Shown here: positions 5,201 through 48,323 of the stretch, piece after piece
Layout of the letters: each line of letters opens with the position of its first letter
Position numbering within the stretch: the stretch's first letter is position 1
From: Bacteroidota bacterium
GTDB taxonomy: Bacteria; Bacteroidota; Ignavibacteria; Kryptoniales; JAKASW01
Assembly: GCA_021794075.1 (NCBI GenBank)
Contig: JAJYRM010000015.1
Span: 1-52,940, forward strand
Direction: 5' to 3'
DNA: 52,940 nucleotides
Program-made: the position numbers and the translations under genes
The notes under the pieces: model-generated
The model's input: only the letters and a program-made list of their open reading frames with translations
What the model was told of the DNA's origin: nothing
Database searches by the model: none

Positions 5201-5649
5201 ACGAGATAAAACTGCTTTTGAATAAAATTGAGTTGGAAGATCTGTACTCGATCCATCAGACCTGCGATCTCGATTTCGAACCCCCTCTTTCCAGCCGAAC
5301 CGACATAAGAGTCTATTGCAGGAAACTGTTGAAGTACGCCGATATCATCTCCGTAAATGTTAAAGGAAATCTCGCAGGGGTCCTCTGCATTTACGCGAAC
5401 GACTCACAAACCAGGGTGTCCTATATCTCTTCAGTCGCGGTGCTTAAAGGATACAGGCGATTGGGACTGGGCAACGCACTCGTCGAGAAAGCTATCTCGT
5501 TGTCCCAGAAGAAAGGGATGTCTTCCGTCAAATTGGAAGTGGGCAAGAACAATACGGCGGCACAACACCTGTACAGAAAATTCGGGTTCATAGTCGAGAA
5601 AGAAAATGATCTCACGCTCTTAATGGTAAGGGAATACAATGGCAGATGA
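5197..5649 (+). CDS. GNAT-family N-acetyltransferase
   Basis: A 150-residue GNAT-fold enzyme. The acetyl-CoA binding motif A is clear: VSYISSVAVLKGYRRLGLGN (the RxxGxG/A loop), followed by LVEKAISLSQKKGMSSVKLEV and the C-terminal NNTAAQHLYRKFGF motif B. The ATG at 5197 overlaps the WbqC stop (ATGA); a longer reading from 5119 lies wholly inside wbqC and is not favoured. Next to an aminotransferase and WbqC, the simplest role is acetylating the amino group of a nucleotide-activated amino-deoxyhexose, comparable to acetyltransferases in Qui4NAc or Fuc3NAc pathways, though those are often left-handed beta-helix enzymes. A protein or amino-acid acceptor cannot be excluded. Its 3' end overlaps the giant gene by 11 bp. 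Confidence 0.85.
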   Translation: MNEIKLLLNKIELEDLYSIHQTCDLDFEPPLSSRTDIRVYCRKLLKYADIISVNVKGNLAGVLCIYANDSQTRVSYISSVAVLKGYRRLGLGNALVEKAISLSQKKGMSSVKLEVGKNNTAAQHLYRKFGFIVEKENDLTLLMVREYNGR

Positions 5650-8600
5650 CGCAGTCGTCAGTATCCTTTGCGTGACATACAACCACGAAAAGTATATCTC
5701 GCAATCGATAGAAGGGTTTCTCTCTCAACAAACCGATTTCCCGTTCGAAGTCGTAATTGCGGATGACGCCTCGACCGACAACAACCGGAAAATCATCGAA
5801 GAGTATGCCGCGAAATACCCTGACATCATCAAGCCGATACTCCGGACAAAAAACATGGGTGCGGCTGATAATTGGATCGACGCTTTCCGGCACTGCAGGG
5901 GCAGGTATATCGCCCAATGCGAAGGCGACGATTACTGGACCGATCCGCACAAACTGCAAATGCAGGTCGGCTTCCTTGAATCGCACAGGGATTTCGCGAT
6001 CTGCTCACATGGTACTGAACGTATCAATGACCGCACCGGCAGGGACGGTGTGTGGTTCGAGCCGCCGGAAGACAAAGAGTACTATACTCTCGAGGACTTC
6101 ATTTCGTACGGGAGGACTTTCATAGCGACATCTTCGCTTGTCGCCAGAAACTACCCCGACGTGCTGCCGGAATGGTTCACCGAAACGCCGGCAGGTGATA
6201 TGGCATTTATCATGAGCACTTGCTTGAAGGAGAACGGCAAGATCAAGAGATTCAAGGAGTACATGTCGGTACACCGGTCGCATTCCGGCGGCGTCTACTC
6301 TGGTCTGAGTACCCTCGACCAGGAGATGTTCAGCATCGAGGCGAGAATATTCTTCAGGAGAAAACTCCCGGCCAGGTACGAGCCTGCGTTCAGAAAGGGA
6401 TTGAAGACAATCATCTCGGGAATGGTGTCCAGCATCGACAGCCTCTCGAGATCCAACTCGGACCTCACAAGGAGGAACCAAGAACTGACGGCTACGGTGA
6501 ACAACCTCAGTCGAGCCGCCGATAAGCCGCACGCGTCGCACAGCGCCGCAAACGGTATAAACTATAAATCCTACCAGGATCTGAGTCTGACGATCCGAAA
6601 CAACATGGTGAAAATACCGCGCGATGTAGATCTCGTCGTCGGCATACCCAGGTCCGGAATGTTCCCGGCCGTGATGATCGGAGAGCTGTTGAACAAACCG
6701 GTGGTGGCCCTCGATTCTTATATCGACGGGAGGCTCTACGAAATCGGTGAGTATCGCAGACCCGCTAACCTTGTCTCGGACATCTCTCAAGTGAAGAGAG
6801 TCTTGATTGTAGATGACAGCATCAATACGGGGAAGTCGATAGAGAAGGTCAAAGAAAGAGTAAGAAATAGCGGCAGGGCAGGTGTCGATACGATCTATTG
6901 CGCGGTTTACTTCCTCCGCGAAAGCGTCGGCGGCGTCGACATCGGTCTTGAGGAATGTGTTATGCCCCGCGTGTTCCAATGGAACATTCTTAACTCGTGG
7001 GTGATGCCGAATGCGTGTGTGGACATCGACGGAGTCGTATGTGTGGATCCGACTGAAGAGGAAAACGATGACGGCAAGAGGTATGAAGCGTTTCTTCGCG
7101 ATGCCGAACCTTTGTTCCTGACCGAGTTTAAAGTCGGTGCCTTCGTCACGAGCCGCCTCGAAAAGTACAGGAGCCTGACCGAAGAATGGCTCCGGAAACA
7201 TCATCTCGATTACGGCGAGCTGATCATGCTGAACCTCCCGTCGAAGGAGGAGAGGCTGCGTCAAAAAGCGCATGCTTCCTTCAAGGCGGAAGTCTTCAGG
7301 AACCGGAAGGAACGCTTCTTCATCGAAAGCAGCCTGTCCCAGGCAAAGCAAATAGCCGCACTGACTGGCAAGACGGTATTCTGCACCGAAAACATGGAGA
7401 TGATCGCTCCAGGGCCCGGTGCCCGCCCCGCAGAACCCGTTCTGAGTTACGAAGAACTTCTTGCCGATGCAGAGATCGCCATCCAGAGCCGCGATCTGGA
7501 TAAGGCTCACTTCAAACTTGAAACCATTCTGGCCCGTCGGCCGAACGACGTGGCAGCATTGAATGACCTCGCCGTGGTCAGGATTCTGACGGGCGATTCC
7601 GCCTCGGCCGCTCAACTTATAGCGAAGGTAATCGATATCGACCCTTCTAACGATGTCGCACGGCAGAATCTTACCATCCTGAAAGGGCTCCTCACGTCTA
7701 AGCTGAATGAGCTCAAGGAGAGCCGCGATCAGACTGGCGTCTCGCAGCAACTCCCGCAAACGTCCGATCCCGGTCGACCTGCGTCTGGGTACGGCCCGGT
7801 CAGGTTGAGCGAGAATTCTCCCATCGTCTCAATCATAATTCCCACCCGGAACAGGCCCGAAGGATTACGCAGGACCCTTGAAAGCATCAAAGAACAGACA
7901 TATGGTAAAATCGAAGTAATTGTCGTCAATGACGCGGGGAAAAATGTGGAGGGAGTGGTCTCGGAATTTTCTTCGGCGTTGAACGTGCGCTATTTCCAGC
8001 ATGATACCAACAGGAGATCGGGTGCCGCGAGGAACACCGGCGTGAAGGCCGCTTCAGGCAAATACGTTTGCTTCATCGATGACGACGATGTCTTCTACCC
8101 GGACCATGTCGAGACTCTGGTTGCGCGGCTGGAACATGGCGATTGCGCAGTTGCATATACGGACGCTCACAGGGCAAACGAAATCATGCAGAACGGGAAG
8201 TACGTGACCGTCGGAGTGGATGTCCCTTATTCACAGGATTTCTCCCGCGACAAAATGCTTGTTGCGAATTTCATCCCGATCCTCTGCGTGATGCTTAAAC
8301 GGTCCATCCTCGATGATGTCGGTCTCTTCGACGAGTCCCTTACTTCGCATATCGACTGGGACCTCTGGGTTCGGGTGGCCCTGAAGTTCGACTTCGTCCA
8401 CCTTAACAAGGTGACTTGCAGATTTACCTGGCGCCATGACGGAAGTACCATGACGAGCCGCGGCCAGGAAGACCTGAGGAGGACGGCCGCGATCGTTTAC
8501 CGGAAATACGCAGAATATTCGGCCGGGGTCCCGGGACTGGTCGAGCTTCAAAAGCGGCAACTGATGTCATGGATAGCCGACCTAAGGGATCAGGCCCGGA

Positions 8601-11600
8601 CCATCGCCTCGGAAGGCCGTATCGAGAACGCCATTTCTCTTCTCGTAAGGCTCGGCGATCTAAAAGAAGAGGTCGCACGAACCGCTTCACATCTGAACTT
8701 CGATTTCGAAGAAGATGACAGGCTGAACATTTATTTGCTCCTCGAATTGGCAACCAGGGGAATAGCAGAAGGGCTGATCACGAATGTGATGGAAGCCTGC
8801 GGGGCGGTACTCCGGCTCGACGAGCACAACCATGAGGCACTCCAAATTCGGCGCGAACTTACTGCGGGGAACGCCGCCGGCGACCCCGCGATACCAGATA
8901 AGAAAAAGACTGGTGAAGCGGCTGGACGCCGGGATTCGGTCAAGTTGGTCTCAATCATAATCCCGGTCTTCAACAAGGTTGAGTATACCAGGAAATGTAT
9001 CGATGCGCTGTTTGCCGATACGGATGCTTGGAAATTCGAACTGATTGTTGTCGACAATGCGTCCTCAGATGGAACGAGAGAGTATTTGGCCGCACTGCAG
9101 CGCGAGATCAAAGTGATCAGCAACCGGGAAAATCTAGGGTTTGCGAAAGCCTGCAACCAGGGTTCGCGTGCCTCTTCAGGGAAATACATCGTCTTCCTGA
9201 ATAACGATACCGAGCCGCAGCCGGGATGGCTGGATGAACTCCTGAGGACCGCCGAGACCGAAGAGAACGTTGGGATAGTGGGCAGCAAGTTGCTATATCC
9301 GGACGGCACCCTGCAGCATGCCGGTGTGGCCATCAACAGAAACAAGATCCCCTATCATATCTACAGGGGATTGCCGTCAGACCTGCCTTCCGCGAACAGG
9401 CAGTTGGACTATCAGGCGGTGACGGCAGCCTGCCTGATGATACCTCGAGATCTGTTCTTCGAGGTCGGCTGTTTTGACGAGCGTTATGTCAACGGCTACG
9501 AAGATGTGGACCTCTGTTTCAAGGTCGGAGCAGTACGGAAGCGAATCGTTTATAATCCCGCGAGCGTGCTGATCCATCACGAAGGGAAGTCCGAGGGGAG
9601 GCAGGACCGCATGGACCTGAACGAAAAAATCCTGCTGAGAACATGGTCGGACAAGATTCAGCAGGATGACTATCTGATAGTCCTGCGGGATGGGCAGGAG
9701 TTGCTGAAACGAGGAATGGTTAAGGAAGCGGAACGCTATTTCGAATTATCTCTGGCTCTCTTCTCCGGAAGGTCGGATGTTAAGAAATGGAAGGAAGAGC
9801 GTGTCGCGGAATTGTATGGCAATGCCCAGAACCTGATTGCCTCCGGAAATCTTGACGGAGCGAGAGAGAGTCTTGCCGCCGCGCTGGAAATCGATCCCGA
9901 CAATGCCGCATGCCTGAATGACATGGCCGTCCTCGCTTCTATGGCCAACAACTCCGAGACTGCCATCAGGTTATTGGGCCGCTTGACGGAACTGGAGCCG
10001 GAAAATACCATAGCCCGTAAGAACCTCGCCAGCTTATACATGAAGACGAACAGGATCGAAGACGCTCTAGCTTGCTATCGAACGCTATCGAAGGCATTGC
10101 CGGACGATGTCGAAGTCCTCCTTGCAACGGCACAGGCGTGTATGGCTTCAGGGAAACAGGAGGACGCTATGTCCTTCTACAAGAGAATTTTGAATTTGCC
10201 TGTCGCCTCCGGCCTGAGAGAAAAAGTGTCCGCCGTCGTCGAAGAAATTGGCCTCGGCCTGTCGGTCGGGTTTCAGTCCGCGAACGAACACGCTCTCCGG
10301 TCTGAATCAGCGGCCTCCGGCGAAAATACGCGCATCGGTTCCGGCCCTCTCGTCTCGATAATCATTCCGGTATTCAACAAGATAGAGTATACCAAGAAGT
10401 GCGTTGAGGCCGTTCTGCGAAACACGGCGTATCGAGAGTTCGAGGTGATATTCGTGGACAACGGTTCTACCGACAGCACTTCGGATTTCATCCAGGGACT
10501 CGGGAAAATGGACGCCCGGTTCCATTCTTTGCATTCGGAGGAGAACCTGGGCTTCGTAAAAGGGTGCAACTGGGGAGCCAGGGAGGCGAAAGGAAAGTAT
10601 ATCCTCTTCCTCAATAACGATACTGAAGTGATGACGGGTTGGCTCGAAAGCCTTGTGAACTTTGCCGATTCGAGGAGCGACTGCGGGGCTGTCGGCTCAA
10701 AGCTGATTTATCCCGACGGCTCTTTGCAGGAGGCCGGCGGCATGATATTCTCCGACGGCAGCGGCGGCAATTTCGGACGGGGTCAGGACCCGGATGCGCT
10801 TCCGTTTAACTCCGTGTTGGAGGTGGACTACTGCTCCGGCGCCAGTCTTATGGTTAGGGCCGACCTCTTCATGAAGTATGGCGGTTTCGACGAACTGTAC
10901 GTACCAGCATATTCCGAGGATGCCGACTTCTGTTTCACTCTCCGGGCGAACGGTTACAAAGTATTCTATCTCCCAACATCGCAAGTGCTTCATCACGAAT
11001 CGAAAACATCCGGCAGCGACGAAAATTCAGGGTTCAAAAAGTATCTCCAGATCAACCGTAGGAAATTCATCGGGAAGTGGAAAAATGAAATCCTCTGTCA
11101 GGACGAACCGCCGTTCGGCGACAAACTCCTTCCGGCCACTGCAGACCGCAAGAGGTTGGCTGATGATGCTGACAATGGAAAATTCGGATATAGAACGAAA
11201 TACTTCTTCGATGGGTTGAGCGGCTATCCTGACGATGTCATATCGTTCTTCCCTTCACTGACCCCACGAGAAAGGAAAGTGAGCGTGATCGGGAAATTCC
11301 AAGATCCGTTTTTCCTGTCCGATCTTGCCGGCCGTTACGGATTTGCATGGGTCTTTGTCCGTGCCTATCTGGAAGGGCGGTACCTGCGATTGCATCCCGA
11401 CGAGAGACGAGAGATGTTCGACGCCGTGACTGACGACGAATTATCTCACGCGAAAGGATTCGTGATGGGCGTCGAACCGCAGCTGGCCTATTTCCTGAGG
11501 GACATTGCCAAACTGGAAGCTACTCCGGAGCCGACAAGGTCACTATTCTTCATAACGTCGGCAGGGAAAAGACTCTACGGGATACAGGCGCTCTATGAAC

Positions 11601-14600
11601 TCTACAAGGTTTGCACCAAGTATGCGTTGATGAAGGGAATCTCCGATGTCAATGGGAATGTCACGGAGGAGACGGGGGTGAGCGCCGTTGAGGGAGTGAT
11701 TCGAAGCGGATATTCAGAACTCGAGGAGCTTCCACAATTCGTCGGTAAGATCGACAATCGCGTGCTGAGATATGTGAGCCACACTGAAACAGCCGCCGAA
11801 GGAAAGCATGTCAAAGTCCTCTGTTTCTATCCGCATAATCCTTATCCTCCGAGAACCGGCGCCGACCACGGATTTATCGGCGTCCTCGATGCCCTTCAGG
11901 AACTCGGTTGCGAGGTCGATCTGATGAGTTCCACGTACTTCACCGACAAGCCCTGGAAGACTCATGATATCGAGAAGTTTTGCCGGGAGAAAAAAGTCGG
12001 GCTCTATATCCATCAAGCAGATGAAGAGGACCATATCCACGTCAGGTCCTTGCAGCTCACCGGTCCTTCCGGGAGATGGGATATGAAAGTACCGGACGGC
12101 CTCCGGTCGGCATTCGCAGAAGTCTACGCCGAGGTTTCACCAGATATAGTGCTCATCAATTACGCATGGTGGGGAAAGCTGATAGACGGTCCGCAGTTCG
12201 ATGGATCCATCCATGTCATTCAAATGCACGACCTTATCAGCCTCAACGAGAAAATGCAGGAAGCAGCGCACGCCCTTACCGGCAGGCCTCCTTATGACCT
12301 CGCTAACGTAAATCCCAATGCCTTGATAGAGGATGTTTACTCTCGGTTGAATCTCAGGGGGGATCAGGACGAATACGAAATTTACAGAAGATTCAACCAT
12401 GTCATCGGAGTCTCTCCGGGTGAACTCGAAAGAATAACCGAGTTCTCGAGCGGGACCAAATCCATTCTTATCCCGGCCCCTCTCGGAAACAGGCAGTTCG
12501 TGACAGGGAACAGCTACAAGGGACTTCCGCTTTTCGCGATCGCGAATAACGTGTTTAATGTACAGGCATACATGTACTTCGTGAATAAGGTCCTGCCGTT
12601 GATCAGGAAAGAGGTGCCTGATTTCCAGCTCAACGTCATCGGTGACGGTTGCAAGGTGATACAGCCGGTCGACGGAGTGAACCTGCTCGGATTCGTCGAT
12701 GATATTCTCGCCCTGTACCGTGATACATCCTTCGCCATCGCACCTATGATCGGGGGTACGGGACAATCGGTCAAGATACTCGAAGCGATGGCCAACGGCC
12801 TGCCGGTCGTCTCGCTGAAGAATTCCTACCAGGCGTGCAGTGTAAGGAACGGAGTCGATGGGTTCACCGCGCAGAATGCTGAGGAATTCGCGGAATACTC
12901 GATCCGGCTCTACAAGGACAGGGAGCTTTGCAGGAAAATGGGCGAAAATGCCAGGGAAGGGATAAGCAAGGATTATTCATACGGGAAAATCGTTGAAGCC
13001 TTGAAGCCGGTCGTCGATGACGCCTCGGTGCCCCGTTCCGGGAAATCAATGGGCCGCGTGAAAGCCGCAGCTCGGAAAACCGGAAAAGGAAATGGTTCGG
13101 GAAGCGTCCGCTCGACAGAAGCGATATTGAAACCGTATATCGAAAGAGTCGAAGGGAATTGCGTGTTTGTCAAGGGTTCTATCTTCGACATAGATCCCGG
13201 ATCGCCCCTCGCCTCGATCGAAAAGTTCCTCAACAGCCTGCCGCCTTTTTATGCCCACTTCGGTGGAATAGGCGACGCGTCGCTGCTGCTTTCAACTTTC
13301 TACGACAGCGATCCTGCGCAGACCATCGTGAGCTTTGGCAATTCCAGGGAGACGATGAAGAGCTTCTTCGAATCGTTCGCAGGCATACGGAAAATCTATC
13401 TTATGGACTCGCCGTCCCATTCGGGTGTCCACCAGTTGATAAGGTTCATGATCCATAGGACCCGCAAATGCAAGGGGACGGGCGTCGCACCCCTCCATGA
13501 GTACAACGCCGAGTGGAACGCCAATATTGACATATTTGGCAAGTACGGAATCAAGAAGAATCCCGAGTGGATGGACAGGTTCAGAACAGGAAAAATCCAG
13601 GACTTCCAGGTGGCTATCCAGCCGAAGGGAAGCCTCAGGGGAATGGTCCTGAGCAAGAAGAATGTCATCGACAGGAATCATTGGAGGGCAATGATATCGT
13701 ACCTTCGTAGCGCCGGCATCAGTCCGGTTATACTTGGTACCCCGCAGGAAAGCAAGGACTACCCGGCTCTCGATGGGTGTATCGACAAGCGCGGTGCTTC
13801 TCTCAAAGAACAGCTGCAAATTGCCGCCTCAAGCGATTTGGTCATAGGTGCCGATTCCTGGGCGAAAACATTTTCAGCCCTTGCTTCGATTCCAACCATC
13901 GTGTTCCGTACGGTCCGTGGGGAAGATCTGAAGGGATGGGACGACCCAGCTGATAACGTGTTCATCAAGCCGTGGGAATCCATCAAAGTGGTTGGCAACA
14001 TCGAAGAATTTCAAACGGAATGTTCCAGGTTGATTCCGGAAAGTGTGAAGTACAATACGCGGACGGACTCACTGGAGAACACCGCTGCCGCGAGCCCTCA
14101 TTCGTCAGACGATCGGGAAGGAAAGCTTCTTGTCAAATGGGAAGGCTCCCAGTTCGTTCACCATTCCATGGCGCTCATCAACCGCGAGTTGACACTGCAA
14201 CTCATCGACAAGGGACATGATTTGAGTATTATTCCTTATGAGCAAGATGAGTACAGCCACCGAATAGACAAACGGTTTGCGAAGATCGTGAAACGGGTCA
14301 ACAAACAGCTGGCGGGTCCTGCAGATATTCACGTCAGGCATCAGTGGCCGCCGAACCTTGTGCCTCCGTCCGAAGGTCATTGGGTCGTGATTCAACCATG
14401 GGAATTCGGCAGCATCCCCAAGGACTGGATAAGGACAATGAACGAGTCAGTGGACGAAGTCTGGGTCCCATCCACTTATGTCAGGGACTGCTATGTGAAA
14501 AGCGGTCTGAATCCTGACGGAATTACCGTCGTTCCCAACGGCGTTAACCCCGAAAGATTCAGCCCGAAATCAAAGCCGTATCAGCTGAAGACAAAAAAGA

Positions 14601-15739
14601 AGTTCAAGTTCCTCTTCATCGGCGGCACGATCGCGCGTAAGGGAATCGACATCCTTCTCAACGCGTACGTGAAGTCGTTTACCAGGAACGACGACGTCTG
14701 TCTCGTGATCAAGGATATGCTCGGGAATTCATTCTACAAGGGACAGACGATAGAGGAGGATCTCAAGAGAATTTCATCCGACCAGTCGCTTCCCGAAATT
14801 GAGTATGTCAACGAGAAGTTGTCGGAAGAGGAGATCGCTGGCCTTTATACCGCCGCGGATTGTCTCGTTCACCCGTACAGGGGGGAAGGCTTCGGTCTAC
14901 CGATCGCCGAAGCCCTCTCGAGCGAACTTCCCGTCATAGTGACGAATTATGGCGCGGCACTCGACTTCTGCAACGACGGGAATTCGTATCTCATTCCTTC
15001 GAAGGTGGTTTATTACGAGGAAAAGAAGATCGGAAACCGCGAAACGGTGGATCTCCCGTGGCTCGCCGAGCCCGACCAGGCCGCTGTCGGGGAATTGATG
15101 AGGCACGTTCACGAATCCTATGAGGAAGCTAAGGCGAAAGCCCGGAGAGGGAGGCAACTCATTCTTGAAAAGTTCAGCTGGAACAGGGTTGGCGAATTGG
15201 CAGAGCAGCGTATGCTGGAACTTCGGAGCCGCCCCGTCAAACGGTTTGAGAAAGCCGTGTCCTCAACCATCGAGGCGCAATACAATCTCGCGCAGGATCT
15301 GATAAACGCGGGGGATCTGAGGAGCGCCGCCAACGTTCTGAAGGAACTTCTTGAATCTGACGGTGACAACGTGGAGGCCGCGAACGATCTGGCGGTCGTA
15401 TATTCCATGAACGGAAACCTGTCGGACGCAGAGAAAGTCCTGAGCGATGTTGTCAGCAGGCATCCTGAGCATACTCTTGCAAAGAAAAATCTTGCTTCAA
15501 TGTATTCGAACCAGGGGAAGTTCGAAGAGGCGGTCGCGCTTTATCAGGATATCCTGAAGTCGACTCCCTTCGATGTCGAAGTCTTCAACTCGCTCGGACA
15601 AATATGTCTCAGGCTAGGGAACGTGGCGCAGGCAAAGGAATTCTTCTCGATCATTCTGGAAAAGGATCCGGGCAACCAGCAGGCGAAAAAATTCCTTGAT
15701 GCTATCGAGAGCCTCCCGGAGGAGTCTGCCGTAAAATAG
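5639..15739 (+). CDS. Giant multi-domain glycosyltransferase (4x GT2, PRTase-HAD, 2x GT4-like, GT9-like, TPR)
   Basis: One uninterrupted frame of 3366 codons. Approximate domain order by residue: GT2 number 1 (1-230; DDASTDN, CEGDDYWTDP); short coiled coil (268-293); phosphoribosyltransferase (310-450; VVGIPRSGM, VLIVDDSINTGKS); HAD-like phosphatase (459-600; DIDGVVCVD, FVTSRLEKYR); TPR (611-681); GT2 number 2 (730-960; IDDDDVFYPDH); helical linker (1005-1074); GT2 number 3 (1104-1340; FLNNDTEPQPGW); TPR (1351-1538); GT2 number 4 (1572-1820; FLNNDTEVMTGW); unassigned region (about 1848-2054); GT4-like (2059-2457); GT9-like (2498-2788); GT4 (2830-3198; VVPNGVNPERFSP, HPYRGEGFGLPIAEAL); TPR (3211-3361). 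No signal peptide or membrane segment is evident, so it should work on cytoplasmic precursors. It overlaps the GNAT gene by 11 bp. It probably assembles or attaches a complex surface glycan; substrates are unknown. Confidence 0.9.
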   Translation: MADDAVVSILCVTYNHEKYISQSIEGFLSQQTDFPFEVVIADDASTDNNRKIIEEYAAKYPDIIKPILRTKNMGAADNWIDAFRHCRGRYIAQCEGDDYWTDPHKLQMQVGFLESHRDFAICSHGTERINDRTGRDGVWFEPPEDKEYYTLEDFISYGRTFIATSSLVARNYPDVLPEWFTETPAGDMAFIMSTCLKENGKIKRFKEYMSVHRSHSGGVYSGLSTLDQEMFSIEARIFFRRKLPARYEPAFRKGLKTIISGMVSSIDSLSRSNSDLTRRNQELTATVNNLSRAADKPHASHSAANGINYKSYQDLSLTIRNNMVKIPRDVDLVVGIPRSGMFPAVMIGELLNKPVVALDSYIDGRLYEIGEYRRPANLVSDISQVKRVLIVDDSINTGKSIEKVKERVRNSGRAGVDTIYCAVYFLRESVGGVDIGLEECVMPRVFQWNILNSWVMPNACVDIDGVVCVDPTEEENDDGKRYEAFLRDAEPLFLTEFKVGAFVTSRLEKYRSLTEEWLRKHHLDYGELIMLNLPSKEERLRQKAHASFKAEVFRNRKERFFIESSLSQAKQIAALTGKTVFCTENMEMIAPGPGARPAEPVLSYEELLADAEIAIQSRDLDKAHFKLETILARRPNDVAALNDLAVVRILTGDSASAAQLIAKVIDIDPSNDVARQNLTILKGLLTSKLNELKESRDQTGVSQQLPQTSDPGRPASGYGPVRLSENSPIVSIIIPTRNRPEGLRRTLESIKEQTYGKIEVIVVNDAGKNVEGVVSEFSSALNVRYFQHDTNRRSGAARNTGVKAASGKYVCFIDDDDVFYPDHVETLVARLEHGDCAVAYTDAHRANEIMQNGKYVTVGVDVPYSQDFSRDKMLVANFIPILCVMLKRSILDDVGLFDESLTSHIDWDLWVRVALKFDFVHLNKVTCRFTWRHDGSTMTSRGQEDLRRTAAIVYRKYAEYSAGVPGLVELQKRQLMSWIADLRDQARTIASEGRIENAISLLVRLGDLKEEVARTASHLNFDFEEDDRLNIYLLLELATRGIAEGLITNVMEACGAVLRLDEHNHEALQIRRELTAGNAAGDPAIPDKKKTGEAAGRRDSVKLVSIIIPVFNKVEYTRKCIDALFADTDAWKFELIVVDNASSDGTREYLAALQREIKVISNRENLGFAKACNQGSRASSGKYIVFLNNDTEPQPGWLDELLRTAETEENVGIVGSKLLYPDGTLQHAGVAINRNKIPYHIYRGLPSDLPSANRQLDYQAVTAACLMIPRDLFFEVGCFDERYVNGYEDVDLCFKVGAVRKRIVYNPASVLIHHEGKSEGRQDRMDLNEKILLRTWSDKIQQDDYLIVLRDGQELLKRGMVKEAERYFELSLALFSGRSDVKKWKEERVAELYGNAQNLIASGNLDGARESLAAALEIDPDNAACLNDMAVLASMANNSETAIRLLGRLTELEPENTIARKNLASLYMKTNRIEDALACYRTLSKALPDDVEVLLATAQACMASGKQEDAMSFYKRILNLPVASGLREKVSAVVEEIGLGLSVGFQSANEHALRSESAASGENTRIGSGPLVSIIIPVFNKIEYTKKCVEAVLRNTAYREFEVIFVDNGSTDSTSDFIQGLGKMDARFHSLHSEENLGFVKGCNWGAREAKGKYILFLNNDTEVMTGWLESLVNFADSRSDCGAVGSKLIYPDGSLQEAGGMIFSDGSGGNFGRGQDPDALPFNSVLEVDYCSGASLMVRADLFMKYGGFDELYVPAYSEDADFCFTLRANGYKVFYLPTSQVLHHESKTSGSDENSGFKKYLQINRRKFIGKWKNEILCQDEPPFGDKLLPATADRKRLADDADNGKFGYRTKYFFDGLSGYPDDVISFFPSLTPRERKVSVIGKFQDPFFLSDLAGRYGFAWVFVRAYLEGRYLRLHPDERREMFDAVTDDELSHAKGFVMGVEPQLAYFLRDIAKLEATPEPTRSLFFITSAGKRLYGIQALYELYKVCTKYALMKGISDVNGNVTEETGVSAVEGVIRSGYSELEELPQFVGKIDNRVLRYVSHTETAAEGKHVKVLCFYPHNPYPPRTGADHGFIGVLDALQELGCEVDLMSSTYFTDKPWKTHDIEKFCREKKVGLYIHQADEEDHIHVRSLQLTGPSGRWDMKVPDGLRSAFAEVYAEVSPDIVLINYAWWGKLIDGPQFDGSIHVIQMHDLISLNEKMQEAAHALTGRPPYDLANVNPNALIEDVYSRLNLRGDQDEYEIYRRFNHVIGVSPGELERITEFSSGTKSILIPAPLGNRQFVTGNSYKGLPLFAIANNVFNVQAYMYFVNKVLPLIRKEVPDFQLNVIGDGCKVIQPVDGVNLLGFVDDILALYRDTSFAIAPMIGGTGQSVKILEAMANGLPVVSLKNSYQACSVRNGVDGFTAQNAEEFAEYSIRLYKDRELCRKMGENAREGISKDYSYGKIVEALKPVVDDASVPRSGKSMGRVKAAARKTGKGNGSGSVRSTEAILKPYIERVEGNCVFVKGSIFDIDPGSPLASIEKFLNSLPPFYAHFGGIGDASLLLSTFYDSDPAQTIVSFGNSRETMKSFFESFAGIRKIYLMDSPSHSGVHQLIRFMIHRTRKCKGTGVAPLHEYNAEWNANIDIFGKYGIKKNPEWMDRFRTGKIQDFQVAIQPKGSLRGMVLSKKNVIDRNHWRAMISYLRSAGISPVILGTPQESKDYPALDGCIDKRGASLKEQLQIAASSDLVIGADSWAKTFSALASIPTIVFRTVRGEDLKGWDDPADNVFIKPWESIKVVGNIEEFQTECSRLIPESVKYNTRTDSLENTAAASPHSSDDREGKLLVKWEGSQFVHHSMALINRELTLQLIDKGHDLSIIPYEQDEYSHRIDKRFAKIVKRVNKQLAGPADIHVRHQWPPNLVPPSEGHWVVIQPWEFGSIPKDWIRTMNESVDEVWVPSTYVRDCYVKSGLNPDGITVVPNGVNPERFSPKSKPYQLKTKKKFKFLFIGGTIARKGIDILLNAYVKSFTRNDDVCLVIKDMLGNSFYKGQTIEEDLKRISSDQSLPEIEYVNEKLSEEEIAGLYTAADCLVHPYRGEGFGLPIAEALSSELPVIVTNYGAALDFCNDGNSYLIPSKVVYYEEKKIGNRETVDLPWLAEPDQAAVGELMRHVHESYEEAKAKARRGRQLILEKFSWNRVGELAEQRMLELRSRPVKRFEKAVSSTIEAQYNLAQDLINAGDLRSAANVLKELLESDGDNVEAANDLAVVYSMNGNLSDAEKVLSDVVSRHPEHTLAKKNLASMYSNQGKFEEAVALYQDILKSTPFDVEVFNSLGQICLRLGNVAQAKEFFSIILEKDPGNQQAKKFLDAIESLPEESAVK

Positions 15740-41583: not shown

Positions 41584-42975
41584 TTGACGAAGAGTTCGTC
41601 TCACGAAAAGTTAACGGCGGCGCTAAGTTCTGTAGTTGCCGCCGTCTTTCTTACCGCATTTAAACTATTAGTCGGAATGAGTACGGGGAGCCTCGGTATC
41701 CTTAGCGAGGCGGCCCACTCCGGACTTGATCTGCTCGCGGCCTTCATGACTTTCTTCGCCGTTAGAGCGGCCGACAAGCCTGCGGACTCCGAGCACCATT
41801 ACGGGCACGGCAAGTTTGAAAACATTTCCGCCTTTTTCGAAACACTCCTCCTGCTTCTGACCTGTTTCCTCATTGCAAGGGAAGCCATCGAGCGCATTTT
41901 CTTCCGGCAGGTGCCGATTGACGTGACGGCTTGGAGCTTCATAGTGATGGGGACGTCAATCGTGATCGATTTCACCAGGTCCAGAATTCTCCTGCGGGCC
42001 GCGAAAAAATACCACAGTCAGGCGCTGGAAGCGGATGCTCTCCATTTTAGTACGGACATACTGAGTTCGAGCGTTGTGATCTTCGGACTCATCGGCGCGA
42101 AACTTGGCTTCGAGTTCGCGGATCCTATCGCGGCTCTTGGAGTCTCGGCAATCGTAGTCGTGATAAGCCTCCGATTGGGCAAGAGAGCCATTGACGTTCT
42201 CGTTGACAGGAGCCCCGATCCCGCTCTTGTGGCGTCGATTCGAACCGCCGCGCTGCAGTCAAGCGAGATCCGCGAGCTGAAGAAGCTGCGCGTCAGAGAT
42301 TCCGGCGGAAGAATCTTCGTTGACATGGTAGTGGGACTCCCGAGGCTTCTCCCTTTCGAGCAGGCCCATAAGCTCATGGACGGAATCGAGCAGCGAGTGA
42401 GGAAGATAAGGGATGGTATTGACGTCGTGGTTCACGCGGAACCTGTCGAGACAATGGAAGAAACAGTTCTTGACAAGGTGAGATTCGCCGCCGAGGACAC
42501 CGGCAGCAAGATCCATCAAATCGAAGTCTTCACAACGGATGGGGGAATTGTCATCGACCTTCACCTCGAAGTGGAGGACGCCAATACGATCGAGGAAGCG
42601 CACTTGAAGGCGGACAAGCTGGAGAATGCGATACGCCACCAGGTCAATGAAGTGGAGGAGATTTTTGTTCACATCGACAAATCCTCAGGAGAGCTGATAC
42701 AAGCCAAATCGGTGAGCCTGAGGAACAGCAACCTGCCTCGCAGAATTATTGATTTCATCAGATTGAAACGCGAGGTAGTATCTTGTGGAAATCTGAATTT
42801 TACTGAAAGCGCATCCGGCCTTCGTGTAGGCCTGACATGTCAGATCAAAGATACTTTTTCATTGGAAGAGACAGTTAGGATCGTGAATGAGCTTGAAGAA
42901 GATATTGTGAGGGAGTTTCCGCAAATAAACAAGGCAGTGATTCACCAGGAACCCGTTGACGGCAAAGGAATATGA
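41584..42975 (+). CDS. Cation diffusion facilitator transporter with three C-terminal repeats
   Basis: Residues about 1-205 are a six-helix CDF core. Transport-site motifs are EAAHSGLDLL in helix 2 and DALHFSTDILSSS in helix 5, both HxxxD, giving an HD-HD site like zinc-selective ZnT proteins rather than the DD-HD site of YiiP. The loop HHYGHGKFENISAF is also typical. Beyond one normal dimerisation domain (about 213-290, LVDRSPDPALVASIRTAAL...) there are two more units of the same kind (about 293-370 and 378-460), so the protein is 463 residues against roughly 300 for most CDF proteins. The start is TTG 41584, giving the standard N-terminus; no strong ribosome site is seen. It overlaps alaX by 4 bp. 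Likely zinc or divalent metal export. Confidence 0.87.
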   Translation: MTKSSSHEKLTAALSSVVAAVFLTAFKLLVGMSTGSLGILSEAAHSGLDLLAAFMTFFAVRAADKPADSEHHYGHGKFENISAFFETLLLLLTCFLIAREAIERIFFRQVPIDVTAWSFIVMGTSIVIDFTRSRILLRAAKKYHSQALEADALHFSTDILSSSVVIFGLIGAKLGFEFADPIAALGVSAIVVVISLRLGKRAIDVLVDRSPDPALVASIRTAALQSSEIRELKKLRVRDSGGRIFVDMVVGLPRLLPFEQAHKLMDGIEQRVRKIRDGIDVVVHAEPVETMEETVLDKVRFAAEDTGSKIHQIEVFTTDGGIVIDLHLEVEDANTIEEAHLKADKLENAIRHQVNEVEEIFVHIDKSSGELIQAKSVSLRNSNLPRRIIDFIRLKREVVSCGNLNFTESASGLRVGLTCQIKDTFSLEETVRIVNELEEDIVREFPQINKAVIHQEPVDGKGI

Positions 42976-44156
42976 GACCTTATTACGACGACCCATACAC
43001 AACTGAATTCAAGGCGAATGTAACTGAATGTATCAGCAGGGAAGACGGCTTCGCCGCGCTTCTTGACAACAGCTATTTCTATCCGACCTCCGGAGGGCAG
43101 GAGCACGATATCGGATTCATCGGCCAAGAGGAAGTTGCGGATGTGATCGAGGAGGAAGGCCGCGTCCTGCATATCGTAACGCGAAAAATCCCGATCGGTG
43201 AAGCCGAATGTAGGATAGACAGGAAGAGACGGGTTGGCAACATGCAGCAGCATACGGGCCAGCACATGCTTTCCGCCGCATTCGACAGCCTGTTCGGCAT
43301 CGAAACAGTCTCGTCGAGACTTGGTGAATACATCGGTTCGATCGACCTGTCTCGTCAACCGACAGAAGCGGAGATCTCTCAGGCCGTGGAAGCGGTGAAC
43401 ATGGTGATACGTGAGAACCGTCCGATTACGGTTCACTATGCGGAACCGGGTGATGTCGGATCATTCCATCTTAGAAAGCCTCCTAAGGTTGATGGGACCG
43501 TGAGGATCATCGATGTCAAAGATTTCGATATGTCCGCATGCGGCGGAACCCACTGCACGCACACATCCGAAATAGGCGTTGTCTTGACGGGAAACGTCGA
43601 GAAGGTGAAGGGAGCCTTGACCCGCATCGAATTCTTCTGCGGAGAGAGAGCGATAAGGCGTTACTATGAAATGTTCAGGTCCGCGCATGAGAGCTCAAGA
43701 CTCATTTCTGCGGGCATTGACGATCTGCCTGTTGCGGTTCAAAAAATCAAGACTCAAATTCAGGAGCGCGATAGCAGGATCAAAGACCTTTCAGGGAAGA
43801 TACTGGAGAGTATATGCGAGCGAGCCGTTCAACGCGTGGAAGGAACGGACGAATCGCTTGTCGTTGTTGATCTCTCGTCTGAAATTGAAAACACCGAGGA
43901 CATGCGTTTCGTGGGGAGCTGCGTTTCGAAAAGGACTAAGAAGTCGTTTGCATTTCATCGTACTGAGGGAAATATTAGCTACATGAATCTGAACCTTGCG
44001 TTTGAAGAAAGTCTCGCCACATCAGTCATGTCTGCTCTTCGATCCGAGTTAGGCGTAAAAGGTGGAGGGCGAGGCGGCTATTTCTCCATCACGTTTGAGG
44101 CTTCGGAAAAAGAGAAGGTGGTTGAATTCGTGAGGAGCAAAGTCGGAAATGGATGA
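42972..44156 (+). CDS. AlaX-type alanyl-tRNA editing protein (long form)
   Basis: A 394-residue free-standing homologue of the AlaRS editing domain, expected to deacylate Ser-tRNA(Ala) or Gly-tRNA(Ala). The N-terminal beta part includes DNSYFYPTSGGQEHD; the zinc site is formed by MQQHTGQHMLSAAF (HxxxH, about 93-97) and SACGGTHCTHTSEIG (about 190). After that comes a helical linker and a C-terminal DHHA1-like domain ending in GGRGGYFSITFEASEKEKV, which makes it the long AlaX type. It sits in ATGA overlap after the CDF gene and overlaps the acylphosphatase gene by 8 bp. Confidence 0.9.
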   Translation: MRPYYDDPYTTEFKANVTECISREDGFAALLDNSYFYPTSGGQEHDIGFIGQEEVADVIEEEGRVLHIVTRKIPIGEAECRIDRKRRVGNMQQHTGQHMLSAAFDSLFGIETVSSRLGEYIGSIDLSRQPTEAEISQAVEAVNMVIRENRPITVHYAEPGDVGSFHLRKPPKVDGTVRIIDVKDFDMSACGGTHCTHTSEIGVVLTGNVEKVKGALTRIEFFCGERAIRRYYEMFRSAHESSRLISAGIDDLPVAVQKIKTQIQERDSRIKDLSGKILESICERAVQRVEGTDESLVVVDLSSEIENTEDMRFVGSCVSKRTKKSFAFHRTEGNISYMNLNLAFEESLATSVMSALRSELGVKGGGRGGYFSITFEASEKEKVVEFVRSKVGNG

Positions 44157-44424: not shown

Positions 44425-44888
44425 GGGTCGGTTTTGGGTTCGACGCGCATGAACTCGTCGGAGGGAAGCGTCTCATTCTCGGCGGCGTTCAAATAGAGTT
44501 TGAGAAAGGCCTTCGCGGACATTCTGACGGAGATGTTGTACTGCACGCGCTGAGCGATGCTCTACTTGGCTCCTGCGCGGGTGGGGATATCGGTATGTAT
44601 TTCCGCGACGATGATGGAAAGATTGAGGGAATCGACAGCCGTCGGATTCTCGAGTTTGCTCTCCAAAAAGCGCATGAGTCCGGGCTGAAGATTCACAATA
44701 TCGATCTCGTCCTGGTGGCTGATAGGCCGAAGCTCAGCGGGCTTTACGATGCGATAAGGCGATCCATGTCCGAGTGCTGTGGAGTCGGCGAAAGAGCTGT
44801 GTCAGTTAAGGCTAAGACTACCGAAGGAACTATGGTAGGAAAGGATGCCATTGCTTGCTTCGCAATCGCATTGATGGATGAGTTGTGA
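44421..44888 (+). CDS. ispF: 2-C-methyl-D-erythritol 2,4-cyclodiphosphate synthase
   Basis: Catalyses ring closure of CDP-methylerythritol phosphate in the MEP pathway of isoprenoid synthesis. The metal ligands are Asp8 and His10 (GFGFDAHEL) and His42 (HSDGDVVLHALSDALLG); the loop AKTTEGTMVGKDAIA near the C-terminus binds the cytidine side. Length 155 is normal. Its presence implies the MEP route rather than mevalonate. Overlaps on both sides (ATGA upstream, GTGA downstream) place it in a tight operon. Confidence 0.95.
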   Translation: MRVGFGFDAHELVGGKRLILGGVQIEFEKGLRGHSDGDVVLHALSDALLGSCAGGDIGMYFRDDDGKIEGIDSRRILEFALQKAHESGLKIHNIDLVLVADRPKLSGLYDAIRRSMSECCGVGERAVSVKAKTTEGTMVGKDAIACFAIALMDEL

Positions 44889-45496
44889 CCGAACTAGACT
44901 CGCTCGTCACTGCACTGAGCCACACCGACCCGTCATATCTGTACTTTACGATTTTCTTCATCGCGTTCTTGGAAAACCTTTTTCCACCGGCACCGAGCGA
45001 CCTGGTGATCGCTTTTGGCGGCTCGCTGGTCGGGATTGGGAAACTCAGTTTTGGCGCGGCGCTTGTATCGGCAACGCTCGGAAGCACAGTTGGTTTCATT
45101 GTCATGTACTTCGTTGGCTTCCTTCTTGGGAAGAAGCTGATCGACGCCGGTAGGCCACGTTTTCTGCCGTTCGACAAAATAAAAGTGGTCGAGAAATGGT
45201 TTACGAAATACGGCTACTGGCTCGTGGTGATGAACAGGTTCCTTTCAGGGACAAGGGCGGTCATTTCTTTCTTTGTAGGACTATCCGAACTTCCCGTCGC
45301 AATCACACTCCCGCTATGTGCTATTAGCGCATTGCTTTGGAATTCGATTTTATTATACGGCGGATATATGCTGGGACACAACTGGAGAACGCTTGATGAG
45401 TATTTGACAGTTTATGGAATAGCGGTGCTCGTTGTCATACTTGGCGCGACTTCCTTTTTTATTGTGAGATTTATCCTAAGGCGGAAGAATGCTTAA
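44885..45496 (+). CDS. DedA-family membrane protein
   Basis: A 203-residue polytopic inner-membrane protein of the DedA/VTT superfamily. Family motifs are ENLFPPAPSDLVIAFGG near the N-terminus (ExxxPxP), the LGSTVGFIVMYFVGFLLGKK helix and FLSGTRAVISFFVGLSELP (FxR-like G-x-R segment). Some DedA proteins flip undecaprenyl phosphate or phospholipids across the inner membrane; the specific lipid here is unknown. GTG start in GTGA overlap with the ispF stop. It overlaps the next gene by 8 bp. Confidence 0.9.
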   Translation: MTELDSLVTALSHTDPSYLYFTIFFIAFLENLFPPAPSDLVIAFGGSLVGIGKLSFGAALVSATLGSTVGFIVMYFVGFLLGKKLIDAGRPRFLPFDKIKVVEKWFTKYGYWLVVMNRFLSGTRAVISFFVGLSELPVAITLPLCAISALLWNSILLYGGYMLGHNWRTLDEYLTVYGIAVLVVILGATSFFIVRFILRRKNA

Positions 45497-46694
45497 GAGA
45501 TCCGCCAAGTATGCCGGAGTCATTCTAGCCGCCATTGTAATAGTGTCGATACTCAACCCTTTTTTCGTTTATCACGTCAACCGGTACGACCCCGTGGATT
45601 TCATCGGCTATTATGAATACTCGGGGGTCATAGGCGTGCACACGAAGTATTCCGACGGAGGGCTGACTTACTCTGACATCGGGAAGATGGCGGATTCACT
45701 GAACCTGCACTTCGTTATCACCACTGATGTGAATTCAACTGAGGCCATGAAGAAGATCCTGGAGAAGCGTTACGGAATGACTTTGATGATCCCGGCCGTT
45801 GAGTTATCCTCGGATCGGGGGCGACTACGCTTTCTTGTGATCGGGGACAGCATCCCAGCCCTTCCGCAAAAAGGAATTAGTCTGGATTCGGCATTGGCTG
45901 AGGCTCGAAGGAAGGGAAGCCTTATTGTCGCGTGCGGCGTTCCAAAACAGGCAGACAAGCTGACATCTTATCATGACAATGAAATCCCTTTCGCAGGCCT
46001 AGAAATCTACAACTTCAGCCGAAGCCTGAGTGGCATGGTCAGTATAACTGAGGTAAACAAGCTCTTCGGAGCTTTTCTCGATTATACAATGGATCCACGA
46101 ACGCTTAATTATCTGATCCATTACCCGAAAGATAAAATGAGAGAGTTTAACAAGCTGAACGATCAAAGGAGAATTGTAGGCATCGCGACGTCGACGCTCC
46201 CTCCGAACAATGTTCTCAGCAAAAGCGGGGGAGTTAGATTTCCTTCTTACGAGAGTGAGCTTGAATTTGTGCATACGATAATTGTTACGGAGACTCCATA
46301 TTCAGCTCAGTACTCTCACGATAGAGACCTGACCATCAACGCGATCAAGCGCGGTCATATGTACATCGCTTTTTCCGGACTCGAGCCGGCGAGGGGCTTT
46401 TATTTTACCGCCACTTCCGGAGACACGACTAGTATCATGGGAGACAGCCTTCGTCTTGAAGGAACCGCGAAACTTCGAATATCGCTTCCTGACAGCGGCG
46501 ATGTGGAAACACGTGTGCTGAAGAATGGAGAAGTCATCGAGAAGTATCGCAATGTCGGCACAATTTCTCTTGCGGTCAATACGCCCGGCGTCTATCGTGT
46601 GGAAGTATATCAGAATAGGACTGTGCTGCCGCTGTTCATGGAACGTTCTTATCCATGGATAATTTCAAATCCGATATATATTTACAAAAGATAA
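45489..46694 (+). CDS. Membrane-anchored PHP-like protein with degenerate metal motifs
   Basis: 401 residues with an N-terminal membrane anchor (about 8-28, GVILAAIVIVSILNPFFVYH). The segment SGVIGVHTKYSDGGLTYSDIGKMADSLNLHFVITTDVN aligns by eye with the start of PHP phosphoesterases, whose consensus is D-L-H-x-H-T...S-D-G then T-D-H. Here the first His is Gly49 and the His after T-D is Val, while His51 and SDG are kept. The later MYIAFSGLEPARGF resembles the region after the PHP barrel, and the last 90 residues look like a beta-sandwich (ETRVLKNGEVIEKY...PGVYRVEVYQ). It probably sits outside the inner membrane. Function is unknown; it may be a binding protein or have a changed metal centre. 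Confidence 0.7.
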   Translation: MLKRSAKYAGVILAAIVIVSILNPFFVYHVNRYDPVDFIGYYEYSGVIGVHTKYSDGGLTYSDIGKMADSLNLHFVITTDVNSTEAMKKILEKRYGMTLMIPAVELSSDRGRLRFLVIGDSIPALPQKGISLDSALAEARRKGSLIVACGVPKQADKLTSYHDNEIPFAGLEIYNFSRSLSGMVSITEVNKLFGAFLDYTMDPRTLNYLIHYPKDKMREFNKLNDQRRIVGIATSTLPPNNVLSKSGGVRFPSYESELEFVHTIIVTETPYSAQYSHDRDLTINAIKRGHMYIAFSGLEPARGFYFTATSGDTTSIMGDSLRLEGTAKLRISLPDSGDVETRVLKNGEVIEKYRNVGTISLAVNTPGVYRVEVYQNRTVLPLFMERSYPWIISNPIYIYKR

Positions 46695-46697
46695 TTG

Positions 46698-48323
46698 ATG
46701 AAAAAGTCTCACAAGTTTTTCGACTCGAAGTTGGCGCTTGGGATCCTATCGGGGATCCTCCTCGGCTTTTCATTTCCTCCTTTTCATATCGAGGGGATAG
46801 CATTTGTCGCGTTAATCCCGTTCCTCTACGCGCTTGAGGGAGCCACGAGCTACAGAGAAATCCTCAAGCTTACTTATTTCAGCTTCCTCGCATTTAATAT
46901 CATAGCGATTTACTGGATAGGCGGATGGAACAAACAGACCGATCCATTCATGATGATTGGAGGAGGAGCGCTGGTAGTCGGGCATCCGCTCTTCTTCGTC
47001 GTCCCCATGCTTTTTTATTACTTCGTTAGACGAAAATTTGGAAAGCATGCTCTTCTCCTCTTCCCATTCCTATACCTTACGTTCGAATATCTTCACTCGA
47101 TAACTCAATTTGCGTTCCCATGGCTAACCCTGGGGTACTCACAATCGTATAACCTGCCGGATATACAGTTCGCCTCGTTTACCGGGCTCTTCGGGGTGTC
47201 CCTTCAGTTATTGATCGTCAACTCGTTGTTGGCGTATGCGCTGATTCGCTGGATGGAATCACCCAATCCGAAGATCAAGACTATAGCATGGCCGGTTTCT
47301 GTCGCATTGCTTTTCGTCGTTATCCCAGAGATATATGGCATTGCGGTTCTCAGCGGCGCGAGACTATCTAACTTCAAGAAGCACATGCGGGTAACGATTA
47401 TCCAGCCGAACATCAACCCATACGCTAAGTGGGAGGGATCTCCTTCGGATATAATGAGGGCGTACGAAAGGGAAACTTATAAGGCGCTCCACCATAAGGC
47501 GGACTTGGTCGTATGGCCGGAGACAGCGATACCTTTTTATATATTTCTTCCTCAATTCAGTTTCTTTCGAAGCGAGCTTCAGACATTTGTCGATACTACG
47601 GGCATATCGCTTCTGAGCGGGGTTCCCCTTGCCCATTATTACAAAGACAGCAGCGAGGCTCAGCCGAGCAGTCACTACGATGAATTCATGAACGAGTATT
47701 ACGACGCGTACAACGGCGCGGCGTTGTTCATGCCGTATGTCCATCGTTATCAGAGCTACGCGAAAATCATCCTCGTTCCGTTCGCAGAGCGTCTCCCTTA
47801 CGCGAATCATCTTTCGTTCCTGATAAAACCGTTGAAGTGGGGAGTAGGGATCAGCAATTGGGCTCGCGGCACAGACACGACGGTTTTCAGACTGGCCAAC
47901 GGCACGCGCTTCTCCGCGGCGATATGTTATGAAAGCGTGTTTCCCGGATATGTCAGGGAGTTTGCGAAGAAAGGCGCCGATTTCCTGGTGATAATCACAA
48001 ATGACGGCTGGTACGGGAATACATCCGGCCCCTACCAGCACGCGGCGTACGCGATCATGAGGGCCGTCGAGAACAGAAGAGCCGTGGTCAGGTCGGCGAA
48101 TACCGGTATATCTGAATTCATCGATCCGTATGGTAGGTATATCGGCGAACCTACGAAGTACGGCGTGATAGCGACGCTGACGGAGAACATCCCCTTGAAT
48201 AGCAAGGTTACTTTTTATTCTGAAAACGGGAATTGGATTGCCCACATCGCGGAGATTGTTTCGGTAGCGTCAATTCTTATCGGACTTTTTCTTAAATTTA
48301 AAAACAAAGAGAGAAGGAGTTAG
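46698..48323 (+). CDS. lnt: Apolipoprotein N-acyltransferase
   Basis: Adds the third acyl chain to outer-membrane lipoproteins, the step before Lol sorting. About eight hydrophobic helices (residues 10-230, including FAFPWLTLGYSQS) precede a nitrilase-like domain whose catalytic triad is visible: Glu in LVVWPETAIPFY (about 274), Lys in AKIILVPFAERLP (about 355) and Cys in AAICYESVFPGYV (about 410). The protein is 541 residues from ATG 46698; a TTG one codon earlier is also possible. A lone C-terminal helix (IVSVASILIGLFLKF) closes it, as in E. coli Lnt. Together with the LolC/E-D genes upstream it shows a full lipoprotein maturation route. Confidence 0.92.
   Translation: MKKSHKFFDSKLALGILSGILLGFSFPPFHIEGIAFVALIPFLYALEGATSYREILKLTYFSFLAFNIIAIYWIGGWNKQTDPFMMIGGGALVVGHPLFFVVPMLFYYFVRRKFGKHALLLFPFLYLTFEYLHSITQFAFPWLTLGYSQSYNLPDIQFASFTGLFGVSLQLLIVNSLLAYALIRWMESPNPKIKTIAWPVSVALLFVVIPEIYGIAVLSGARLSNFKKHMRVTIIQPNINPYAKWEGSPSDIMRAYERETYKALHHKADLVVWPETAIPFYIFLPQFSFFRSELQTFVDTTGISLLSGVPLAHYYKDSSEAQPSSHYDEFMNEYYDAYNGAALFMPYVHRYQSYAKIILVPFAERLPYANHLSFLIKPLKWGVGISNWARGTDTTVFRLANGTRFSAAICYESVFPGYVREFAKKGADFLVIITNDGWYGNTSGPYQHAAYAIMRAVENRRAVVRSANTGISEFIDPYGRYIGEPTKYGVIATLTENIPLNSKVTFYSENGNWIAHIAEIVSVASILIGLFLKFKNKERRS

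Follow-up and report, generated by a model that had tools for sequence, protein, structure and literature searches.

Repeated loss of the metal site in membrane-anchored PHP-like proteins encoded beside lnt

In membrane-anchored PHP-like proteins whose genes are linked to lnt, the metal site has been lost at least twice, and the proteins have been retained. The window, by which we mean the whole stretch of 52,940 nucleotides that was analysed (contig JAJYRM010000015.1 of assembly GCA_021794075.1), holds one such gene at 45489..46694 on the forward strand; it codes for a membrane-anchored PHP-like pseudoenzyme of 401 aa, as judged from its translation, its NCBIfam match, an alignment of its ligand positions and an AlphaFold2 model. 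There is good support for the view that the enzyme is dead and has nevertheless been kept. Our preferred reading, to which we give a probability of about 0.45, is that the retained pseudoenzyme acts as a membrane-anchored partner of Lnt, the apolipoprotein N-acyltransferase encoded next to it.

A two-domain protein of the CehA/McbA branch

The initial annotation of the window had placed this open reading frame between dedA and lnt, and both neighbours are indeed there: a gene for a DedA/VTT family membrane protein (44885..45496, forward strand) overlaps it by eight bases, and lnt (46695..48323, forward strand; LNT_N and CN_hydrolase both over the cut-off) begins directly after its stop codon, with an ATG at 46698 that may be the true start of lnt instead. 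The membrane anchor proposed at the same time is also found, as a single N-terminal hydrophobic stretch at aa 9-27 (45513..45569, forward strand) with a mean hydropathy of 2.48 over 19 residues; the model has a helix at residues 2-26, and the next best 19-residue segment of the protein reaches 0.99. The N-terminal flank of the predicted anchor carries a charge of +3, so that under the positive-inside rule the bulk of the protein is predicted to lie outside the cytoplasm, probably on the periplasmic side. Elsewhere in the window, 5639-15739 is a single open reading frame of 3366 aa, the start of which resembles, by eye, a family 2 glycosyltransferase.

Within the PHP superfamily, the protein is a membrane-anchored two-domain member of the CehA/McbA branch. 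Its best NCBIfam match is CehA_McbA_metalo (NF038032, E 1.6e-12), at 47.5 bits and thus under the curated cut-off of 80 bits, and the same family model matches all 13 members sampled from the genus at E 0.01 or better; apart from the sub-threshold score, the protein differs from the family in its anchor and in the loss of six of the nine metal ligands. Pfam gives the window protein no match over the cut-off, and PF02811 (PHP) is absent even from its matches down to E 10; three of the 13 genus members match PF02811 (E 0.1 or better). A sequence search of solved structures with the window protein returned nothing up to E 1. The claim of a PHP-like fold is upheld by the NF038032 match together with the AlphaFold2 model (mean pLDDT 79.4, pTM 0.81), whose best matches by VIA-align are PHP structures, namely 3e38 (Z 15.2, rmsd 5.0, 243 residues aligned) and 2anu (Z 14.8, rmsd 2.8, 186 aligned). 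The model of an intact relative (L036) matches the same structures at Z 18.1 and 15.7, although both models were fed the same 20 sequences, intact PHP relatives included, and to that extent the window model leans on those relatives. The PHP fold of the window protein is supported as a predicted structure.

The PHP-like domain covers about aa 41-298 (45609..46382, forward strand), these being the model residues matched to 2anu, and in the model it is followed by a C-terminal beta domain at about aa 299-401 (46383..46691, forward strand) with PWIISNPIYI close to its end. This second domain had been singled out as a distinguishing trait; it is seen in the model but is not special, since the best fold match, BVU_3505 (PDB 3e38), is itself titled two-domain PHP-like. 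Comparison of the beta domain with Ig folds gives weak matches at Z about 4, a level that may reflect common arrangement alone.

A search of the window's own genome revealed no second copy of the protein (E 1). Three other PHP matches over the Pfam cut-off lie on contigs C17, C169 and C187 of this genome, in frames of 1154, 299 and 580 aa, respectively; by size, we presume that those on C17 and C187 may be DnaE and PolX.

Loss of the metal ligands

PHP enzymes are described in PMC12926913 as having a nine-residue metal site, HHDHEH[C/H]DH. At the nine positions so defined (aa 49, 51, 56, 81, 105, 114, 150, 236 and 238), the window protein reads GHDVERGTP, so that three of nine ligands are kept, six are lost and the complete nine-residue site is absent. 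By alignment, and all on the forward strand, the former HxH is G49 V50 H51 (45633..45641), with the first ligand gone and the second present; the former TDH histidine is V81 (45729..45731); a former ligand histidine is R114 (45828..45830); a former histidine or cysteine ligand is G150 (45936..45938); and the former DxH is T236 L237 P238 (46194..46202). The substitutions of GxH for HxH and TDV for TDH, noticed in the initial annotation, are thus confirmed, but the two lost histidines counted there were too few. Judged by these residues, the protein has probably lost its enzymatic activity.

We sampled 13 genomes of the genus, each of which gave a single match at E 0.001; the twelve proteins besides that of the window are 44-76% identical to it, and the genus records (L031-L040) are titled as Bacteroidetes MAGs, with one Candidatus Kryptoniota. 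Ten species keep one to four of the nine ligands and three (G003, G005 and G007) keep all nine, with no intermediates. Positions 49, 81, 236 and 238 are lost in all ten degenerate species, and E105 is kept in every one. Intact homologues, which the initial annotation would have taken as a sign of merely local mutation, do exist (in three of the 13 genus members and among 105 of 120 other family members), yet the ligand loss is common to ten species and recurs elsewhere. As ten of 13 species have it, we reject a local mutation or an error in sequencing as the source of the loss.

In C-family DNA polymerases, according to PMC12926913, PHP domains that persist after losing their ligands are frequent, and PHP inactivation as such is to that extent already known. 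Those inactivated domains sit within polymerases, whereas the window protein is stand-alone, membrane-anchored and encoded among envelope genes.

Linkage to lnt in two classes

In all 13 genus genomes (the window and 12 further loci), lnt comes directly after the PHP-like gene. Gene order is conserved over a long stretch across the genus, so that this adjacency is weak evidence alone. Linkage to lnt is also found in a second class of the same phylum, represented by four genomes, where three carry a second, anchored copy with one to four of nine ligands directly upstream of lnt, at gaps of 136, 122 and 12 bases. The Lnt proteins of this class share 34-35% identity with that of the window, at E 1e-91 or better, and L111, the one second-class PHP-like copy compared, is over its length 23-24% identical to proteins of the window's genus. 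Near the degenerate copies of the second class, no dedA was detected. All four genomes also hold a homologue with nine of nine ligands that lacks the context of the anchored type (L109, L110, L113 and L114).

Four residues, N207, S256, Q375 and R377, are common to all 16 lnt-linked proteins; they occur in none of 18 soluble relatives and in one of nine other anchored relatives. The sole relative without lnt linkage that apparently has them, L041, lies on a 3.9 kb contig without lnt. An anchor, these four residues and an lnt directly downstream are combined in 16 of 16 lnt-linked members, the window protein included, though the group was defined from the same 16 sequences on which it was scored. 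The motifs WPE, K..LVPF and ICYE, which we take to be catalytic in Lnt, are present in the window Lnt and in all 16 linked Lnt proteins.

Among the 16 lnt-linked proteins, 13 have one to four ligands and three have nine; the ligand letters of distant rows are alignment-dependent, one protein (f26_L128) keeping three or four of nine according to the alignment. The 120 other family members examined comprise 105 with nine ligands and 15 with five to eight, none having fewer than five; in this census duplicates were removed and one incomplete row (L162) was dropped, the 120 are not independent of each other, and 20 loci had been chosen for a poorly matching catalytic half, which enriches the set for odd ligands. 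Twelve of the 15 partly altered proteins have one and the same pattern, HHHHE[FLY]YDH, and belong to the phylum that includes the Aminicenantes record L042, which we take to be Acidobacteriota. The anchored proteins L196, L198-L204, L206, L212 and L215 from that phylum, together with L047 (Pyrinomonadaceae), show this pattern, with GGHS[TSL] in place of SDG, and on the basis of these motifs the group may use a different metal site.

Beyond the 16, lnt was not seen beside the gene, within flanks of a few kb for fetched loci and at most about 1.5 kb for search loci, so that a gene farther away, or a more distant Lnt, would be missed. Among the fetched loci, tblastn (E 1e-5) detected neither lnt nor dedA in the sequence around L041-L051 or around the 18 outgroup loci L061-L078, which come from the same order or class. 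With the window proteins as blastp queries (E 1e-4), no Lnt or DedA appeared in 14 loci, 11 of them from 64 genomes of L041's phylum. A further search gave 14 loci, one of them L111; the other 13 were likewise negative at this threshold, as were 49 loci from L042's phylum, in which 98 of 396 genomes gave a match. A contig search yielded no locus when the window protein was the only query, and 21 loci when an alignment was used. A profile of the second lineage matched 48 of 395 genomes of the window's phylum, and no further anchored copy was found among the matches listed (the best 20 loci, with at most four candidates scored per genome).

The metal site was lost at least twice

In an outgroup-rooted gene tree from which the ligand columns were excluded, the ten degenerate genus proteins form one clade (90/99, and 94/99 in a larger tree; not starred). 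The same ten-species split (92/96, not starred) emerges from 12 neighbouring genes; lacking an outgroup, that tree is rooted at its midpoint (60/21), and this root sits inside the degenerate set, so that the genus might have lost the site more than once. The outgroup rows of the gene trees keep five to nine ligands, most of them nine; on that ground we treat the full ligand set as ancestral, and a single inactivation within the genus is likely. Replacement of a degenerate gene by transfer of an intact one in the three intact species is disfavoured, since the gene tree and the neighbour-gene tree separate the same ten species.

One old inactivation common to both lnt-linked groups can be rejected: a clade of all degenerate proteins, from the genus and the second class, fails the AU test (p-AU 0.0024, on a set that includes long branches). 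A clade of the second lineage, the genus and L041 is not rejected (AU p 0.32), and the same clade without L041 is (p 0.009). Common ancestry of the lnt-linked form is thus possible on these topologies, while the metal site within it was lost at least twice. The first gene tree holds 26 of 40 rows and the AU-test tree 31 of 43 (8 of the 18 soluble and 7 of the 9 other anchored relatives); L050 and L051 were left out of trees and counts. The association of ligand loss with lnt linkage stands on these two losses (n=2).

Intact anchored relatives and an envelope role

The anchored relatives L041-L046 and L048, from Latescibacterota, Aminicenantes and B38, resemble the window protein in their anchor, their PHP domain and a C-terminal part with PWI.SNPI, and differ from it in keeping nine of nine ligands; neither lnt nor dedA turned up in the flanks fetched for them. 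Several adjoin envelope genes: L042 has MurJ as a neighbour, L041 has LPG_synthase_TM, and L044 and L046 have genes for a heptosyltransferase and an O-antigen ligase on one side and for a PfkB-type kinase on the other. There are non-envelope neighbours too, a DNA polymerase III delta gene upstream of L042 and a sodium:solute symporter gene at L041. Such settings fit a periplasmic envelope function of the putative ancestral enzyme.

The Aminicenantes block of GT9 heptosyltransferase, O-antigen ligase and PfkB-type kinase recurs at L044:2501-3673, L046:9785-11014 and L048 (by Pfam for the first two, by eye for L048), and suggests a lipopolysaccharide-related substrate for the intact anchored PHP proteins. 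L041 itself (L041:1131-2462, a Latescibacterota MAG) keeps both its ligands and its anchor and, at 41-43% identity to the window protein, is far closer than the other relatives found outside the genus; either transfer or a misbinned contig would explain this.

An envelope role, proposed earlier from the Lnt and DedA neighbourhood, gains circumstantial support from lnt linkage in two classes and from the envelope genes beside intact anchored relatives. Such a role need not involve Lnt. The retained pseudoenzyme might bind or sense a glycolipid or undecaprenyl intermediate in the periplasm, for instance, with lnt linkage as an operon habit; the envelope genes around L041, L042, L044 and L046 fit this, as does dedA, also an envelope gene, which lies directly upstream in 11 of 13 genus species. 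However, dedA was not found at the locus in the other two (L037 and L040; tblastn, E 1e-5) while lnt is always next, and lnt is the only one of these neighbours that the second lineage shows. We regard an envelope role unrelated to Lnt as rather unlikely, while giving it serious weight.

Retention and selection

Might the protein still catalyse a reaction, at a site that was rebuilt or needs no metal, around residues such as H51, D56, D80, N82, E105 and the new R114? E105, D80 and N82 are invariant across all 13 genus proteins, and arginine takes the place of the lost ligand histidine at 114 in nine of the ten degenerate species. But column 114 is the sole one in which at least 90% of the ten share one new residue, so that no new multi-residue site is seen; the other lost positions carry unlike residues in different species (V, L, R, I or S at 81; T, G or N at 236). 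The catalytic half is, moreover, the faster-changing half. Its amino-acid distance relative to that of Lnt is 0.68 for the three intact pairs vs 1.88 for 45 degenerate pairs, about 2.8-fold higher, and the corresponding values for the C-terminal part are 1.05 and 1.45 (pairs share branches, and these values are not independent). Continued catalysis of this kind is on this evidence improbable.

The PHP-like open reading frame is full length and free of internal stops in all 13 genus species. NG86 estimates of dN/dS for five degenerate pairs are 0.121, 0.129, 0.166, 0.147 and 0.114, as against 0.039-0.062 for lnt in the same pairs; dS exceeds 0.9 in four of the five, where the values are rough, and the pair G009-G012 (dS 0.57) gives 0.166 for the PHP-like gene and 0.058 for lnt. 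Recent decay is disfavoured by these ratios (0.11-0.17) and by the intact reading frames. As far as substitution patterns go, constraint was eased mostly in the catalytic half and the whole protein stayed under purifying selection. The protein changes faster than the products of most neighbouring genes, as might also be expected if its role were accessory or relaxed. A gene two to four places upstream (window 42972-44156, alanyl-tRNA-editing-like by eye) is also fast-changing (dN/dS 0.04-0.17, five pairs).

That the gene is a mere passenger in slow decay, its function lost and its persistence due to its place inside an essential operon, would agree with its rate of change, with the free variation at lost ligand positions and with its position between overlapping or abutting genes, but we disfavour this as the least probable reading given the low dN/dS, the lack of internal stops, retention in two classes and 49 of 161 C-terminal columns invariant across the ten degenerate species.

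A possible partner of Lnt

Recurrent loss of the metal site in a gene retained beside lnt suggests a non-catalytic role in the envelope. Within this, partnership with Lnt would be the most economical mechanism for a retained pseudoenzyme. The ancestor would have been a membrane-anchored, periplasm-facing metallohydrolase of the CehA/McbA type, encoded beside lnt. Its metal site would have been lost in the ancestor of ten of the 13 genus species and, separately, in another class, while fold, anchor and C-terminal beta domain stayed selected. The protein would sit in the inner membrane beside Lnt and work by binding, not catalysis; we infer that it may hold, position or regulate Lnt or its lipoprotein substrate, in a scaffold role that outlasts the old activity. 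The three species with nine ligands at the same locus indicate that catalysis may still be wanted in some.

A wider claim would be that an undescribed subfamily of anchored PHP proteins serves as a dedicated partner of Lnt, in which the structural role is dominant and catalysis has been discarded at least twice, leaving a non-catalytic cofactor of lipoprotein maturation. We hold this tentatively, and with more doubt than confidence.

Lnt is normally taken to work alone. Our literature searches, with most subscription journals and bioRxiv outside their scope, found no paper linking a PHP domain with CehA, pseudoenzyme or apolipoprotein N-acyltransferase, and none linking Kryptoniota with lipoprotein. 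The genus offers a clean natural series from enzyme to pseudoenzyme at one locus, with three species at nine of nine ligands and ten at one to four, and an envelope-facing protein that repeatedly loses its metal site yet is kept beside lnt would suggest that Lnt has a partner in maturing lipoproteins.
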